From positions 1 through 44,272 of IMG/VR virus record IMGVR_UViG_3300028831_000187: a stretch of 44,272 nucleotides of DNA; one strand, given 5' to 3'. The position numbers and the translations under genes are program-made. The notes beneath the pieces were generated by a model, which was not told the origin of the DNA, searched no databases, and saw nothing but the letters and a program-made list of their open reading frames with translations. Below are positions 33,384 to 43,901 of the stretch, piece by piece. Numbering within the stretch: the first letter of the stretch is position 1; each line of letters starts with the position of its first letter. The DNA comes from a virus.

Positions 33384-33813
33384 GCGCACGATCAACCTCG
33401 ACCAACTGGCTCGTGACTTCGTCCTGGCTCGGCGTGAAATGGCAGACGCCGACGCCAGGGCAAAGGAGTTGCAGGCCAAGCTCATGTCGCTCATGCCCGA
33501 TGGGAAGTTCATCGTGGACATGGGCAATGGCGACAACGCCGAACTGACCAAGGTCGCACCCACTCGCTATGCATGGGTGGCCTCGTCGGTGAAGGCGCTG
33601 CTGCCGGTTCGTCTCTGGAACAGGGTGAAGACGGAAGCGGTCAACAAGCAGATCCTCGAAGCAATGATCACGTCGGGGGAACTGGCCGCCTACGACCTTG
33701 AACCCTGCAAGGAGTTCACCGAAGTCAAGCCCTACCTGAAGGTAACCGAACGGCCTCGGTCGGTCAACGTCATCCCTATCTCTGGGAAGGTGGCATCAGG
33801 TGAGGCCCTATAG
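33373..33813 (+). CDS. Coiled-coil/beta protein of unknown function
   Basis: A 146-aa protein starting MSTKRTINLDQLARDFVLA. An N-terminal helix (ADADARAKELQAKLMSLM) is followed by a beta region (KFIVDMGNGDNAELTKVAPT) and a helical middle (WNRVKTEAVNKQILEAMITS), ending in VTERPRSVNVIPIS. The layout recalls small phage proteins linked to DNA metabolism but no name is justified. It overlaps the HNH-AP2 gene by 14 bases. Confidence 0.65.
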   Translation: MSTKRTINLDQLARDFVLARREMADADARAKELQAKLMSLMPDGKFIVDMGNGDNAELTKVAPTRYAWVASSVKALLPVRLWNRVKTEAVNKQILEAMITSGELAAYDLEPCKEFTEVKPYLKVTERPRSVNVIPISGKVASGEAL

Positions 33814-34336
33814 CCCTCGTCGGCGATTTCCACCGACTCCGATCATAGACGGCGAAGTCGCTCTCATCGAACTGACGGGAGGACAATACGCAATTATCGA
33901 TTCTTGTGATATTGGTCTTGTCAAAGACTACTTCTGGCGAGCACAACTCAAGGGTCGAGTCACCTATGCACTAAACAGTCGTGGACAGTTAATGCACAGA
34001 ATCATCATGGGAACCGCACCTGCCGGGAGGCACTTCATAGACCATATCAACCTAAACGGCCTCGACAACCGACGAGCTAACCTCCGCTGGGTTAACCCCA
34101 GTCAAAGTTCAGCTAACCGCCGCAAACGAACAGGTGCCAAGGGTCACTTCAAGGGAGTGGTCTGGAACGCCGACTGCAACAAATGGCAAGTAATGATTAC
34201 GTCCGGACAAACCAACCACTACCTTGGACTGTTCGATTCAGAAGAAGAGGCAGCACGCAGATACGACCAAGCTGCCTATGAACTTCACGGGCCATATGCT
34301 CACCTCAATTTCCCTAAAGGAGACGAAACATCATGA
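33800..34336 (+). CDS. HNH homing endonuclease with AP2 DNA-binding domain
   Basis: A 178-aa nuclease of the HNH-AP2 class. The HNH part is AHRH-like: LMHRIIMGTAPAGRHFIDHI then NLNGLDNRRANLRWVNPSQS, with the H-N-N/H triad. The C-terminal AP2 domain, KGHFKGVVWNADCNKWQVMI then GLFDSEEEAARRYDQAA and ending HLNFP, binds DNA. Such genes are mobile and copy themselves into homologous sites. It starts at GTG and is fully embedded in the operon by overlaps on both sides, so it inserted without breaking the neighbours. Confidence 0.9.
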   Translation: MRPYSPRRRFPPTPIIDGEVALIELTGGQYAIIDSCDIGLVKDYFWRAQLKGRVTYALNSRGQLMHRIIMGTAPAGRHFIDHINLNGLDNRRANLRWVNPSQSSANRRKRTGAKGHFKGVVWNADCNKWQVMITSGQTNHYLGLFDSEEEAARRYDQAAYELHGPYAHLNFPKGDETS

Positions 34337-35650: not shown

Positions 35651-36112
35651 ATGGGACTTCACGAACTCATCGAAGAGCATGTGGACTCACTTGACGGCGA
35701 CCCAGAACTTCTGGCCGTTGCCATCTTCGAGGAGATCCTCAGCGACCCGGAACTACTACAGGAGATCGTCCTACCAGCCCTGCGAGCAGCGATACGGAAC
35801 CGACTGAGGATGCTCGCCCTCACGGCAGAGCGAAGCAGCATCCTTGACGCTAAACCAGGAGCAGATCCGGCTGCCGACCGCTTGGCCTTCCTAGCCGAAA
35901 AGTTCTTCGTACCGGGGGTGGGATTTGTGACCTGGGCAGAAGCCAGCATCGAACACCATGAGGCCCGTATCGCCTATTTACAGAGCAAGGTAGCTGGCTT
36001 GATCGACACACAGGAGCGCCACCAGCGAGCAATCATCGAGATCAAGAAGGCCGGGGTGAAGAACCTCGGGGAGATCCACGGTAAGCGGCGGCGCACCAAG
36101 AGAGCAAGCTAG
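35651..36112 (+). CDS. Helical protein of unknown function
   Basis: A 153-aa protein starting at ATG one base after the previous stop. It is mostly helical (LLAVAIFEEILSDPELLQEI, PALRAAIRNRLRMLALTAER) with a C-terminal coiled coil and basic tail (EIHGKRRRTKRAS). It lies directly before the repeat array. Unknown. Confidence 0.65.
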   Translation: MGLHELIEEHVDSLDGDPELLAVAIFEEILSDPELLQEIVLPALRAAIRNRLRMLALTAERSSILDAKPGADPAADRLAFLAEKFFVPGVGFVTWAEASIEHHEARIAYLQSKVAGLIDTQERHQRAIIEIKKAGVKNLGEIHGKRRRTKRAS

Positions 36113-36135
36113 TTCATCCAGGGCCATTCTTGAAG

Positions 36136-36506
36136 CGAAACCCATATCGAGGGCGCCCAACATTTAAAGGCCATGCCAAAAACGAAACCCAGACGGGTGC
36201 CGCCCATTCTTTGCCATAGTACAGACGAAACCCATACCGTGTCTGCCCACTCCATTCGGCCAGATCCTAAGCGTAACCCATACTCGCCGCGCCTTATCCC
36301 TAAAGGAGTCACGGTGGTCAAAGAAGATTCGAAACCCAATCAAGACGCGCCCACGAAGCGGACCACGAGGGCCGCGAAGCCCAAGGTAGCAGCGTCCGTT
36401 GCCAAACCAGTCACGAAGCCCACGGTAGATCCGCAACCTGCCAAACGTCCACCGCAACCCAAGCATGAACCGCAAAAACGAAGGACCATACAGCTTGCGG
36501 AACCCA
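36136..36506. repeat. Repeat array A: nine CGnAnCCCA elements, about 45 bases apart
   Basis: The core CGAAACCCA or a variant starts at 36136, 36183, 36226, 36272, 36330, 36375, 36414, 36453 and 36498; spacings are 39-58, mostly 43-47. Between cores lie weaker GCCCA and GCCA elements, giving a sub-period near 15-18. The first four units are non-coding; the rest lie in the disordered 5' part of the next gene, so the pattern is not explained by coding alone. It shares words with array B (GCAACCCAAGC and AGATCCGCAACC). Possible multi-site protein-binding region. Confidence 0.7.
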
Positions 36507-37285
36507 ATGTAGCCACGTCCGAGGAGACCATACAGCCTGCGCTGCCCAGCACAATCCCGTCTCCTTACCTCGAACTACGCATCTGGTGCGAGATGTACCA
36601 GGACGCTATGCAGGCCCGGATCGCCGCCAGCAATCGCTCCGAGAGAGGCGGGGTGCACACAGACTTGTACGCAGGGCACATCAGTTCTCTTGAGAAGACG
36701 GAGCACGAAGTTGGACTTGAACTGGTGCGGGCATACCGTAAGATTGTTTCTCCTACTATCCGAGCCTGGCAGAAATCTTCCCCCGGTATTGGGGAGCACC
36801 TTCTCGCCCGCCTCTTGGGCATTATTGGTGACCCCCGCCGTGCTACTCCTTACCACTGGGAAGGTGTCGGTAAGGAGAACCGAAGGCTGGTTGGAGACGA
36901 ACCTTATGATCGGTCGATCTCTCAACTCTGGTCGTACTGTGGAGTTGGTGATCCAGACCGTAAACGTCGGAAAGGACAAACCGTAGAGGAAGCAATGGCC
37001 TGTGGTATCCCTCTTGCCAAGTCAGTCCTGTTCCTGCTAGCCCAGTCCTGCGTCAAGGTGAACAGAGGCCCCTACCGGGAACATTACGACAAGGCCCGGG
37101 AGGTCTATTCCGCTCGTTTGCACCGTACACCCTGTCCTGCTTGTGGACCCAAAGGCAAACCCGCAAAAGAAGGAGAGCCCTGGTCGCCTGCACATCAGCA
37201 TGCTGCTGCACTCCGGAAGGTGTCCAAGGAGATCCTTCGTGACATGTGGATTGTGTCACAACCCTCGGGAAGCGAGGCACCGTGA
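36314..37285 (+). CDS. Helix-hairpin-helix protein resembling the C-terminal domain of IS110 transposases
   Basis: A 323-aa protein. GTG 36314 is chosen for AAAGGAG just upstream, although the frame stays open through the repeats. Residues 1-75 are disordered, basic and repetitive (AAKPKVAAS, VTKPTVDPQ, PPQPKHEPQ), encoded by array A. Residues about 135-250 contain SPGIGEHLLARLLGIIGDPR, an HhH DNA-binding hairpin, then LWSYCGVGDPDRKRRKGQT, the order seen in Tnp_20 of IS110 enzymes; the RuvC-like catalytic half and the serine motif are absent. TPCPACGPKGKPA and a final HAAALRKVSKEILRDMW follow. Related proteins occur in many phages. Likely DNA-binding, not a transposase. Confidence 0.75.
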   Translation: MVKEDSKPNQDAPTKRTTRAAKPKVAASVAKPVTKPTVDPQPAKRPPQPKHEPQKRRTIQLAEPNVATSEETIQPALPSTIPSPYLELRIWCEMYQDAMQARIAASNRSERGGVHTDLYAGHISSLEKTEHEVGLELVRAYRKIVSPTIRAWQKSSPGIGEHLLARLLGIIGDPRRATPYHWEGVGKENRRLVGDEPYDRSISQLWSYCGVGDPDRKRRKGQTVEEAMACGIPLAKSVLFLLAQSCVKVNRGPYREHYDKAREVYSARLHRTPCPACGPKGKPAKEGEPWSPAHQHAAALRKVSKEILRDMWIVSQPSGSEAP

Positions 37286-37602
37286 GCGAACAGAACGCCG
37301 ATTTAGAAGCAGAGGCGGGGAGCCTCGAAGCCCACATGGCGTGGCTCTACCCGGACCCCAAGAGGCCGTGCATCTGCGCCCACCGCATCGGGCCGGGCAC
37401 CCGCATCTACGGCGTCAACATGGGGCCAGCTTGGGGCAGGACAACGACTGAACCCAAGTGCTACCACCACGGCACCGAGGCCCAGAAGTTCTACGACGAC
37501 AACCTGCGGCGCTTCAGGAAGACCGGCGACTGGGCCGAGTTCCACGTTGACCGGGATGCCTGGGAGGCCGAACAGTCCGACGGCCAGGAGGCACAGGAAT
37601 GA
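37282..37602 (+). CDS. Protein of unknown function
   Basis: A 106-aa protein from GTG in GTGA overlap. Its middle, CICAHRIGPGTRIYGVNMGP, and KCYHHGTEAQKFYDDNLRRF contain Cys and His that could bind zinc; both ends are acidic. It is coupled to the membrane protein that follows (ATGA). Unknown. Confidence 0.6.
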   Translation: MSEQNADLEAEAGSLEAHMAWLYPDPKRPCICAHRIGPGTRIYGVNMGPAWGRTTTEPKCYHHGTEAQKFYDDNLRRFRKTGDWAEFHVDRDAWEAEQSDGQEAQE

Positions 37603-37760
37603 CCGGCTGGGAGTTCCTCCGATGGGTTCTGTTTCCGGTCCTGCTGATCACGGTCGGGTCGGTTTTCATCGTCGGGCCGAACCTCTTCTACTGGCTCGCA
37701 CTGCCCCTGTTCATCGCCAGCGTGGCGATGATGGCCTGGAGGGTGGACCGGTGCGACTGA
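37599..37760 (+). CDS. Small two-helix membrane protein
   Basis: A 53-aa protein in ATGA overlap with the previous gene. It has two hydrophobic helices, VLFPVLLITVGSVFIVG and FYWLALPLFIASVAMMA, joined by PNL, and a short charged C-terminus (WRVDRCD). Function unknown; early phage membrane proteins of this size often alter host membrane physiology or exclude superinfection. Confidence 0.65.
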   Translation: MTGWEFLRWVLFPVLLITVGSVFIVGPNLFYWLALPLFIASVAMMAWRVDRCD

Positions 37761-37779
37761 TCGACGGAGAAACAGAGCA

Positions 37780-38103
37780 ATGAACCGCTGCCAAACTACG
37801 ACCGTAACCCATGCGGAAACCGCTGCCAAATCAGATCCGCAACCCAAGCCATCAGCGCAGCCAACGAAGTCCCGTCGCCCATTCCCAACCCGCTGCGTTT
37901 GCCAGAAGAGAATCGACACCCACAGCAGACCCGCACCCTAGCCAAGATACCAACGACACCCATATCGATACCGCAGCTGTCATGGTGGAAACGAAACCCA
38001 CAGCCCCAACGCTACCGCTGCCATCCTGCTGTCGCAGCCCTACTGCCTGCGACACCCAACCTGATCTCGCTGCAACCGAGGCCATGACCACTGCCGTAGC
38101 CCA
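37780..38103. repeat. Repeat array B: CGnAnCCCA elements alternating with CGCTGCCA
   Basis: Cores related to CGTAACCCA start at 37803, 37838, 37873, 37914, 37954, 37992, 38033, 38050 and 38095; intervening CGCTGCCA elements occur at 37786, 37821 and 38016 among others. Spacing is 35-45, once 17. No convincing gene covers it: a 53-aa frame (37780-37941) and a 104-aa frame overlap but are low-complexity and share the repeat words. Related to array A by shared sequence. It lies directly before the gene at 38137. Confidence 0.65.
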
Positions 38104-38136
38104 TGCCCAACCCGCCCTTCCGTGAAAGGAGAGTCT

Positions 38137-41629: not shown

Positions 41630-43452
41630 TCGACGCTTTCCGTGAACAGTACTTCACTCTCCGCATTAAGGAGAGGCTCACCCCAGCAGAGGCAAGACGC
41701 TCCCTCCATATCCACTTTCGGGAAGCCGCGGCCCTCGAACGTGAAGTACAAGACTGGGTGCAGGCAAGGGCTGAGCATGGGTACCCAGTCCACCTCAGGG
41801 ATGACGAACAGGGTGACGACGAGCCCCTAGCCCCTGAGCAACTCAGCAACGAAGCTCTGCACGCCCTCGAAGACTTCGGCTACTTCCGCACACGCTACTT
41901 CGGTAGACGACCGACGCCCTGGCAAGAGATCGCAGCCAACCAGATCAAGGATCTTCTCACACAAGAGACTAAGGACAAGCAGTACGTAACAATCAACTGT
42001 CCACCAGGATCAGGGAAGTCCACACTCTTTACGCACGATATCCCATGTTGGCTAGCCGTCAGGAACCGAAACCTGCGGGTTATGATTGGCAGCTACACCG
42101 AGCGCCAGGCGGTGCAGTATGTCGGCAGACTCCGCAGAACCTTTCAGCGACGAACAACTGCGCCAGATGCGCAGAGCACTCTCATTAAGGACTTCGGTGG
42201 ATTTCGTCCGCTCCAACGTGATATCTGGCGTGCCAATGAGTTCGTTATCGCCCAACATGGTGAAGTGGATTACTCTGAAAAGGAACCAAGCTTTGCTGCG
42301 TATGGGTACGACTCCGCCTTTCTGGGCGGGCGCTTTGATTTCATCATCTGGGACGACCTGGTTGATCGGCACGTCCTTCGGACCCCCAAGGCTATGGAAG
42401 ATCTTGAAGCATGGTTCATGACTGAGGCGATTACGCGTGTGGAGCCCGGTGGCCTCTTCGTATTACAAGGTCAGCGCATGGCACCTACCGACCTTTATCG
42501 CTTCTCTCTTGACCTGAAATTTGAGGATGGCTCGCCACAATTTAGCCACATCATCTACCGAGCACACGACGAAGATCGGTGTCAGGAGCAGCATAGCGTA
42601 GACGCCCCATACTGGCCGGAAGGATGCCTTCTCGATCCCGTCAGAGTGTCGTGGAAGGACCAAGGCGCCGTCAAGCGTGCCTCAAACGGCCGCTACTTAA
42701 CCCTGTATCAGCAGCAGGATATCGACGAGAGCATGGCACTGGTGCGCCAGCTCTGGCTTGATGGTGGCACTGACGAAGACGGCATCATTCGTCCCGGCTG
42801 TTATGACCGCCACCGAGGAATAGGCGAATTGCCGCAGATCATCGACCAAATGGCCGGGGTTATCACTGTGGACCCATCGGCAGTTAATAACTGGGCCGTT
42901 CAGCTCTGGGCATTAACTCCTGGCAGTAACACGAGGTACTTGATTGATGTGTACAATGGACCCCTGCTCATCTCCGAGTTCCTCGACTACAGTTTCCAAT
43001 CAGCTACGTTCAGTGGTCTTCTCGAAGCCTGGTATCAACGCTTCAGTTCTCTGGGACTTCGCATACACTCTCTCGTTGTGGAGATCAATGGGGCACAGAG
43101 ATGGTTGCAACAGTCTAGGCACTATCAGCAGTGGGCTAGTACCAGAGGCATCAGCTTAATACCGCACACAACCGGGCTTATGAAATCAGACCCTGAGCTA
43201 GGTGTCCAAAGTTTGACACCGCTCTTTAGGGATGGTAAAATAAGATTACCGGGTAAAGGCGGTAATAATCATCTACAAGCCTTTATTGAACAGCACCTGC
43301 ATTACCCGGCCGGAAAGTGGACGGATCAGGTTATGGCCTGTTGGTTCCTGGAGGCCCAATGGCAGAGCGTATCGGGTCGTTTTCAGAAGAGTCCCTCCCT
43401 CTGGCGTCCAAGCTGGATGAGGAACAACGAGAGAGGCCTCAAGGTTGGATGA
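41620..43452 (+). CDS. Terminase large subunit
   Basis: A 610-aa packaging motor, combining an ATPase that drives DNA into the head with a nuclease that cuts it. Walker A is CPPGSGKST near residues 127-136, Walker B is FDFIIWDDL near 241-249. The RNase H-like nuclease has its acids in ITVDPSA (near 417), LVVEINGAQR (near 487) and KWTDQVMACW (near 568). I start at ATG 41620, after the terminator hairpin; there is no ribosome site, and TAGTAT (41604-41609) is a possible -10, so the mRNA may be leaderless. Small subunit not identified. Confidence 0.9.
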   Translation: MPSIDAFREQYFTLRIKERLTPAEARRSLHIHFREAAALEREVQDWVQARAEHGYPVHLRDDEQGDDEPLAPEQLSNEALHALEDFGYFRTRYFGRRPTPWQEIAANQIKDLLTQETKDKQYVTINCPPGSGKSTLFTHDIPCWLAVRNRNLRVMIGSYTERQAVQYVGRLRRTFQRRTTAPDAQSTLIKDFGGFRPLQRDIWRANEFVIAQHGEVDYSEKEPSFAAYGYDSAFLGGRFDFIIWDDLVDRHVLRTPKAMEDLEAWFMTEAITRVEPGGLFVLQGQRMAPTDLYRFSLDLKFEDGSPQFSHIIYRAHDEDRCQEQHSVDAPYWPEGCLLDPVRVSWKDQGAVKRASNGRYLTLYQQQDIDESMALVRQLWLDGGTDEDGIIRPGCYDRHRGIGELPQIIDQMAGVITVDPSAVNNWAVQLWALTPGSNTRYLIDVYNGPLLISEFLDYSFQSATFSGLLEAWYQRFSSLGLRIHSLVVEINGAQRWLQQSRHYQQWASTRGISLIPHTTGLMKSDPELGVQSLTPLFRDGKIRLPGKGGNNHLQAFIEQHLHYPAGKWTDQVMACWFLEAQWQSVSGRFQKSPSLWRPSWMRNNERGLKVG

Positions 43453-43901
43453 CCGAAGTTGAACTAGCCTGGTTCACCGGCCTGTTCGAGGGCGAAGGCT
43501 GCATCTATGTCAAGGATGACGGGCAGCGCCGTGCTGTCTCGGTTCAAATTATCATGACTGACCTGGACATCCTGAAGCGCTGTCAAACCCTCGTGGGTGC
43601 GGGGAAAATCTATGTTAAGCCCACGCCAGATGACTACAAGCAGCGTTACCAGTGGATCATCAGCAAGTGTGACACAAATCAGCGATTGCTTCAAGCCATG
43701 CTGCCCATGCTGGGGGAGCGTCGGCGTGCCAAAGCCGTAGAAGCACTTGTCGTATTGGCTGACATGATCCCACGTAGCCCAAAGGGCGTTATCCAGCATG
43801 GCACATACGCTGGCTACCAGCAGGAGAGGCGGGCGGGGATGGAAACTTGTCCAGCTTGCCGCCAGGCCAAGTCAGCCTATGAGCGGAACCGAGTCTCATA
43901 A
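43449..43901 (+). CDS. LAGLIDADG-type homing endonuclease with C-terminal zinc module
   Basis: A 150-aa protein. WFTGLFEGEGCIYVK near the N-terminus is the LAGLIDADG helix (here with Glu-Gly-Glu-Gly catalytic acid), followed by the beta saddle (AVSVQIIMTDLDILKRCQTL, YQWIISKCDTNQRLLQAML). A single copy implies a homodimer. The end, YAGYQQERRAGMETCPACRQ, is the CxxCRxAxxxYxR zinc module also seen at 15037. Start chosen at the ATGA overlap; an ATG at 43359 with GGAGG would add 30 residues inside the terminase. Its TAA overlaps the portal ATG. Free-standing homing nucleases here are common in phages. Confidence 0.8.
   Translation: MTEVELAWFTGLFEGEGCIYVKDDGQRRAVSVQIIMTDLDILKRCQTLVGAGKIYVKPTPDDYKQRYQWIISKCDTNQRLLQAMLPMLGERRRAKAVEALVVLADMIPRSPKGVIQHGTYAGYQQERRAGMETCPACRQAKSAYERNRVS

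Follow-up and report, generated by a model that had tools for sequence, protein, structure and literature searches.

A probable phage TIGR-TasA locus with guide units inside its effector gene

The window analysed here, the whole 44,272-base stretch of IMG/VR virus record IMGVR_UViG_3300028831_000187 (57.7% G+C), is from a phage record carrying a large terminase gene, and contains two arrays of short repeats arranged around and within a gene for a Nop-domain protein. The arrays and the protein very probably constitute a phage TIGR-TasA system, as indicated by the protein family, the array geometry, the box motifs, the strand, the synteny, the stem pairing in relatives, and the spacer hypervariability of one group of them. 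The locus is of a known kind in a variant form: a partner gene is present, some of the guides lie in the coding sequence of the effector, and the array form is intermediate.

TIGR-Tas systems were described in 2025 by Faure et al., who stated that it was unknown what they naturally target, what the nuclease-less TasA does, and where the spacers come from, in part because most loci are metagenomic (PMC12045711). The arrays consist of alternating edge and loop repeats with two 9-nucleotide (nt) spacers, box C (CCA) and box D (UG) being present in both repeats and the loop repeat being tetraloop-like; the Nop-domain effectors are TasA (no nuclease), TasH (HNH) and TasR (RuvC) (PMC12045711). In relatives, arrays have been shown to be processed, a TasA to bind RNA, and TasR and TasH to target DNA; TasA systems with stem-loop arrays have also been reported, with intermediates between the two array types suggested (PMC12045711).

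The repeat unit and its arrangement around tasA

The order on the + strand is a 153-residue gene, ten repeat units, tasA starting within the unit series, two small genes, and the second array. Each unit comprises CCA, a 9-nt spacer A, the loop repeat CG-NNAC-CCA, a 9-nt spacer B, YG, and an 8-31-base edge that runs up to and includes the next CCA, and unit by unit the series fits the published TIGR description, with CG for UG. A preliminary description of this DNA had located the repeats correctly, and all of them are on the + strand. The CGnAnCCCA core that it reported is present, but is the middle of a longer dual-spacer unit, and its two arrays of nine cores each are there, although array A has 10 units and array B has 6 clean units plus 2-3 decayed ones.

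A search of the window with the strict pattern CCA-N9-YGNNNNCCA-N9-YG finds 15 exact copies on the + strand and one on the - strand, compared with 0.42 expected from dinucleotide shuffles of the whole window. Fourteen of the 15 + strand copies are inside the two arrays; the remaining copy (37464-37495) is an isolated unit-like match in the small gene after tasA, and is probably due to chance given the whole-window expectation. Shuffling and alignment of the cores had both been proposed as checks, and both favour genuine arrays: the 15 copies compare with 0.03 expected in the local 2.2 kb (local maximum 1), and loop-repeat positions C1, G2, C6, C7, C8 and A9 are invariant across the 16 clean units, the tetraloop being mostly A-rich. 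When spacer lengths are scanned, the 9/9 combination alone is enriched (15 copies, with 0-3 for all others), and every one of the 16 clean units has 9-nt spacers together with a 9-nt loop repeat, the dual-spacer arrangement that serves as a TIGR-Tas criterion. A second such criterion is a same-strand array, usually of 5-15 units, adjoining the tas gene, and here 10 plus 6 clean units flank tasA. Box C (CCA) closes 16/16 loop repeats and 14/16 preceding edges (TCA in the other two); box D opens all loop repeats as CG and the edges as CG or TG.

Units 1-4 of array A are 5' of the tasA GTG (36314) and units 5-10 are within the coding sequence, where the unit periods (45, 39, 39, 45 and 42) are all multiples of three. 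Before tasA the periods are 47, 43 and 46, and in array B they are 35, 35, 41, 40 and 38; the period of 35, near the 36-nt unit of studied arrays, arises because the two leading complete edges in array B, CGCTGCCA and CGCAGCCA, have 8 nt each. As the preliminary description held, coding repeats do not explain the arrays. A further TIGR-Tas criterion is additional pairing, or a palindrome, at the edge next to the box C/D pair. The two sides of the edges pair at positions 1-3 in 94, 71 and 53% of cases, versus 63, 37 and 25% expected, and beyond position 3 not above chance. The edge stems in the window are 2-3 bp, and since pairing exceeds chance at the first three positions alone, the array is placed between the stem-loop and dual-repeat forms. 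A search of the arrays against Rfam gave no match.

The TIGR-TasA stem-loop arrays of a Peromyscus gut contig (PMC12045711) likewise have a nuclease-less Nop protein, two spacers framed by box C/D, palindromic edges, and arrays split around the gene; they differ in that here the loop repeat is fixed at 9 nt, the edges are 8-31 nt with short stems, the array is partly inside tasA, and there is a conserved second gene. TasR/TasH dual-repeat arrays, such as that of SpTasH in Salicola phage CGphi29, share the 9-nt spacers, the CCA/UG-type boxes, the tetraloop-like loop repeat and a homologous Nop domain, whereas here the HNH or RuvC nuclease is absent and the edges vary in sequence and length. CRISPR arrays resemble these in having tandem repeats, variable spacers and an adjoining effector gene, but here the repeats are short (9-nt loops, 8-31-nt edges), the 9-nt spacers are paired, and no Cas genes are seen.

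The TasA protein and its partner gene

The protein between the arrays, previously described as helix-hairpin-helix (HhH) and IS110-C-terminal-like, belongs to the TasR/TasH/TasA family, whose members bind box C/D guide RNAs (PMC12045711), as a nuclease-less TasA. A profile of eight family members matches TasR (9mty, E=2e-29) and TasH (E=1.9e-16) in the PDB over the Nop domain, and as a single sequence the window protein matches TasH with E=1.9e-7 and TasR with E=7.5e-4. The AlphaFold2 model has pLDDT values above 90 over most of the Nop domain, and its eleven top PDB fold matches are TasH/TasR-tigRNA complexes, followed by the ISCro4 and IS621 recombinases; the first ~85 residues, encoded by array A units 5-10, are disordered in the model. 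A Pfam search of the N-terminus gave no match to HNH or RuvC, and the IS110 RuvC/DEDD domain was not found in the window protein. It is the absence of a nuclease domain that classes the protein as TasA and not TasH or TasR. The preliminary description was right to associate the arrays with an IS110-C-terminal-like protein and to expect a structured non-coding RNA next to such a protein; the conserved words in the arrays are the box C and box D motifs of guide RNAs.

The PHROGs label of the phrog_4285 family is 'transposase', and the Pfam match to Transposase_20 (IS110) is weak and below the cut-off. In sequenced actinophage records the tasA family is named transposase, helix-turn-helix or hypothetical, and this naming is misleading. 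An alternative identity, a deleted or decayed IS110 transposon that left some bridge-RNA sequence behind, is suggested by the label and by the structural kinship to IS621 and ISCro4, which have a related RNA-binding domain fold. We regard this as extremely improbable, given the missing RuvC/DEDD domain, the closer match to TasH and TasR, the conservation of the open reading frames (ORFs) across many distant phages, and the presence of many short guides in many-unit arrays instead of one two-loop bridge RNA; the conservation of the arrays in relatives already contradicts it.

An ORF just 5' of tasA matches a profile of seven partner sequences (E<1e-3) in 90 loci. The window partner is divergent, but is the sole window match (E=1.5e-6) of a profile made from 77 other partners with the window left out. 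Its predicted structure is all-helical and confident (mean pLDDT 93.6), with no fold match in the PDB, and the gene has no ParB-like match. The phrog_4604 gene was not found in CGphi29, the SpTasH phage. A partner directly upstream of tasA is nearly universal in this phage group and goes unmentioned in the main text of the TIGR paper, and the conserved gene is a candidate for a missing TIGR-Tas component.

Guide units within the tasA coding sequence are likewise a feature absent from the main text of that paper. Besides the N-terminal units of the window, 56 units in 21 relatives are inside the conserved Nop coding region, in open frame. Processing of such units would cut the tasA mRNA, so that self-limiting tasA expression is a possible consequence.

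Table 1. Features of the TIGR-TasA locus in the window.
Feature	Coordinates	Strand	Description
Partner gene	35651..36112	+	153 aa, phrog_4604-like, function unassigned; adjoins tasA on its 5' side
TIGR array A	36124..36559	+	10 dual-spacer units, CCA-N9-CGNNACCCA-N9-YG; edges 12-31 nt
tasA	36314..37285	+	GTG start after AAAGGAG; 323 aa; phrog_4285 E=1.7e-47
TasA protein layout			~85-residue disordered N-terminus encoded by array units, then Nop domain; HNH/RuvC domain absent
TIGR array B	37791..38011	+	6 clean units 3' of tasA
Array B decayed end	38021..38113	+	2-3 imperfect units (8- and 10-nt spacers, CCT box; relaxed scan)

Elsewhere in the window there are two homing-endonuclease-like (HNH family) genes, at 33800-34336 and 43317-43901, the second of which overlaps the end of the terminase gene.

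Relatives and array evolution

The TasA protein is found by tblastn in at least 83 sequenced phages: 76 have Mycobacterium as host, and the others Gordonia, Rhodococcus or Arthrobacter; most of the isolated phages with TasA propagate on Mycobacterium smegmatis. Profile searches recover 80 tasA loci in viral contigs and 7 in bacterial genomes. Used by itself as seed, the window protein gave no matches in the viral contigs, and an alignment-based profile was required. Some 90 relatives, mostly actinophages, have the same gene and array arrangement, and at least three strict units are present in 56 of 90 loci. Over all tested loci the tasA strand has 431 copies of the unit pattern and the opposite strand 43, and in whole records of relatives the units concentrate near tasA. 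In a tree with modest support the window is among the basal branches, near loci L022 and L020 and a locus of a Phycisphaerae metagenome-assembled genome.

The full unit pattern was first suggested by relatives such as Gordonia phage Morrissey, in which the core is in a 30-nt loop between long inverted repeats, e.g. CCAGGCCGGGAC-[CATCCACGCCACGTAACCCAAGGTCCACGC]-GTCCCGGCCTGG. Edge stems in relatives are ~10 bp, with 88% Watson-Crick pairing over positions 1-8 versus 41% with shuffled partners. For stem wobble bias, compared as a test of RNA versus DNA, the frequencies of GT (4.2%) and AC (2.8%) differ too little to decide. Within the same TasA group, the array of L055 (2936-3072) is of the true dual-repeat form, its period being 33 nt and its stems nearly absent. 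In phage Scowl (L010, 4807-4870) CTTTTCTT follows the third A1 hairpin, and this hairpin might also act as a transcription terminator.

Ten distinct arrays of A1 mycobacteriophages have the same five hairpins, and between phages they differ at 60.5% of spacer positions, compared with 7.7% for edges, 5.0% for hairpin linkers and 8.5% for tasA fourfold sites. The A1 spacers thus change far faster than silent sites within an almost constant scaffold, a pattern that the main text of the TIGR paper does not describe. In the L031 array, unit 1 from one phage is joined to units 2 and 3 of another, and recombination therefore contributes to spacer change; an active process and strong selection are indistinguishable here as sources of new spacers. 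In L159 (4780-4913; Mycobacterium sp. PSTR-4-N) three adjoining units resemble a 51-nt tandem duplication whose breakpoints fall in loop repeats, spacer B being common to units 1 and 2 and spacer A to units 2 and 3, which suggests that arrays grow when loop repeats recombine and that new A/B pairs result. Among 406 distinct spacer pairs from 61 loci plus the A1 phages there is no covariation of spacers A and B. Both have the same position-wise base bias, and their same-position identity is slightly under chance (z = -4.6, within-locus shuffles).

These observations bear on the earlier proposal that the arrays are clusters of DNA-binding sites (centromere-like, origin, packaging or decoy) for the protein encoded between them. 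Many repeats beside a nucleic-acid-binding protein gene would fit such a role, and tasA is sometimes in an operon with a ParB-like gene (PMC12045711). However, what separates the conserved words in each unit is a pair of 9-nt spacers, and hypervariable 9-mers would have no use in fixed binding sites; in relatives the flanks form paired stems, and it is the pairing and not the stem sequence that is conserved; the protein is in an RNA-binding guide family; and the partner here is not ParB-like. The proposal is unsupported, and we consider it most unlikely.

Possible action and targets

By analogy with the studied systems, the TIGR-TasA arrays would give + strand transcripts, which would be processed to short guide RNAs with two spacers each (~36 nt in those systems). 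A TasA dimer may grip each RNA via the motifs of its loop and edge repeats, CCA (box C) and CG/UG (box D). The DNA target is predicted to be 18 bp long, with spacer A base-pairing to one of its strands and spacer B to the opposite one, and the dimer would open and bend it. Because TasA has no nuclease domain, the likely outcome would be blocking or bending of another mobile element's DNA and not cleavage. Action on DNA, and competition with other elements as its purpose, are what we infer for this locus.

Several results count against this interpretation and against the identification as TIGR-TasA. With a target model derived from the published 8-nt 3' overhangs (spacer A plus the reverse complement of spacer B, gap 0-2), the window spacer pairs had no match better than decoys in their own genome; a cross-targeting search of 1.7 Mb of actinophage DNA gave 7 one-mismatch pairs versus 5.4 for decoys and 54 two-mismatch pairs versus 52. 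No target was found for 23 A1 mycobacteriophage spacer pairs, searched as exact gapless 18-mers in 50,697 phage genomes, with the 18-mer control detected in part of that search. A consensus scan predicted no rho-independent terminator just after either array. Recurrence of the array beside the gene in relatives, another check proposed in the preliminary description, holds for the 56 loci given above, but about one-third of relatives are without three strict units, some having variant loops. Spacer pairs searched against the loci also gave no match better than decoys. Two hits in the phage-genome search, each bridging two spacers, were dismissed as chance.

Alternatively, the guides could direct TasA to the phage's own genome or RNA for gene regulation. 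The lack of a nuclease domain would suit this role, as would an array that begins before and enters its own gene, whose processing could limit tasA expression. The spacer pairs match the own genome no more than chance, though, and in mycobacteriophages spacer turnover greatly outpaces that of neutral sites, which would not be expected of guides to fixed genes of the phage itself; this fast turnover argues against fixed own-genome targets and would favour competing mobile elements. Regulation of the phage itself is accordingly possible but improbable in our judgement.

A bolder proposal is that the actinophage TIGR-TasA systems form a two-gene subtype, in which the phrog_4604 partner would act in guide replacement or targeting and spacers would be swapped in situ through a process that is either active or under strong selection. 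We put this forward as a speculation that is doubtful at present. If true, phages of this subtype would carry an RNA-guided weapon or shield that evolves fast and is directed at other mobile elements. The ten A1 array versions are evidence on how TIGR guides evolve, and the tracing of the system to isolated phages provides genetically workable phages for finding its targets.
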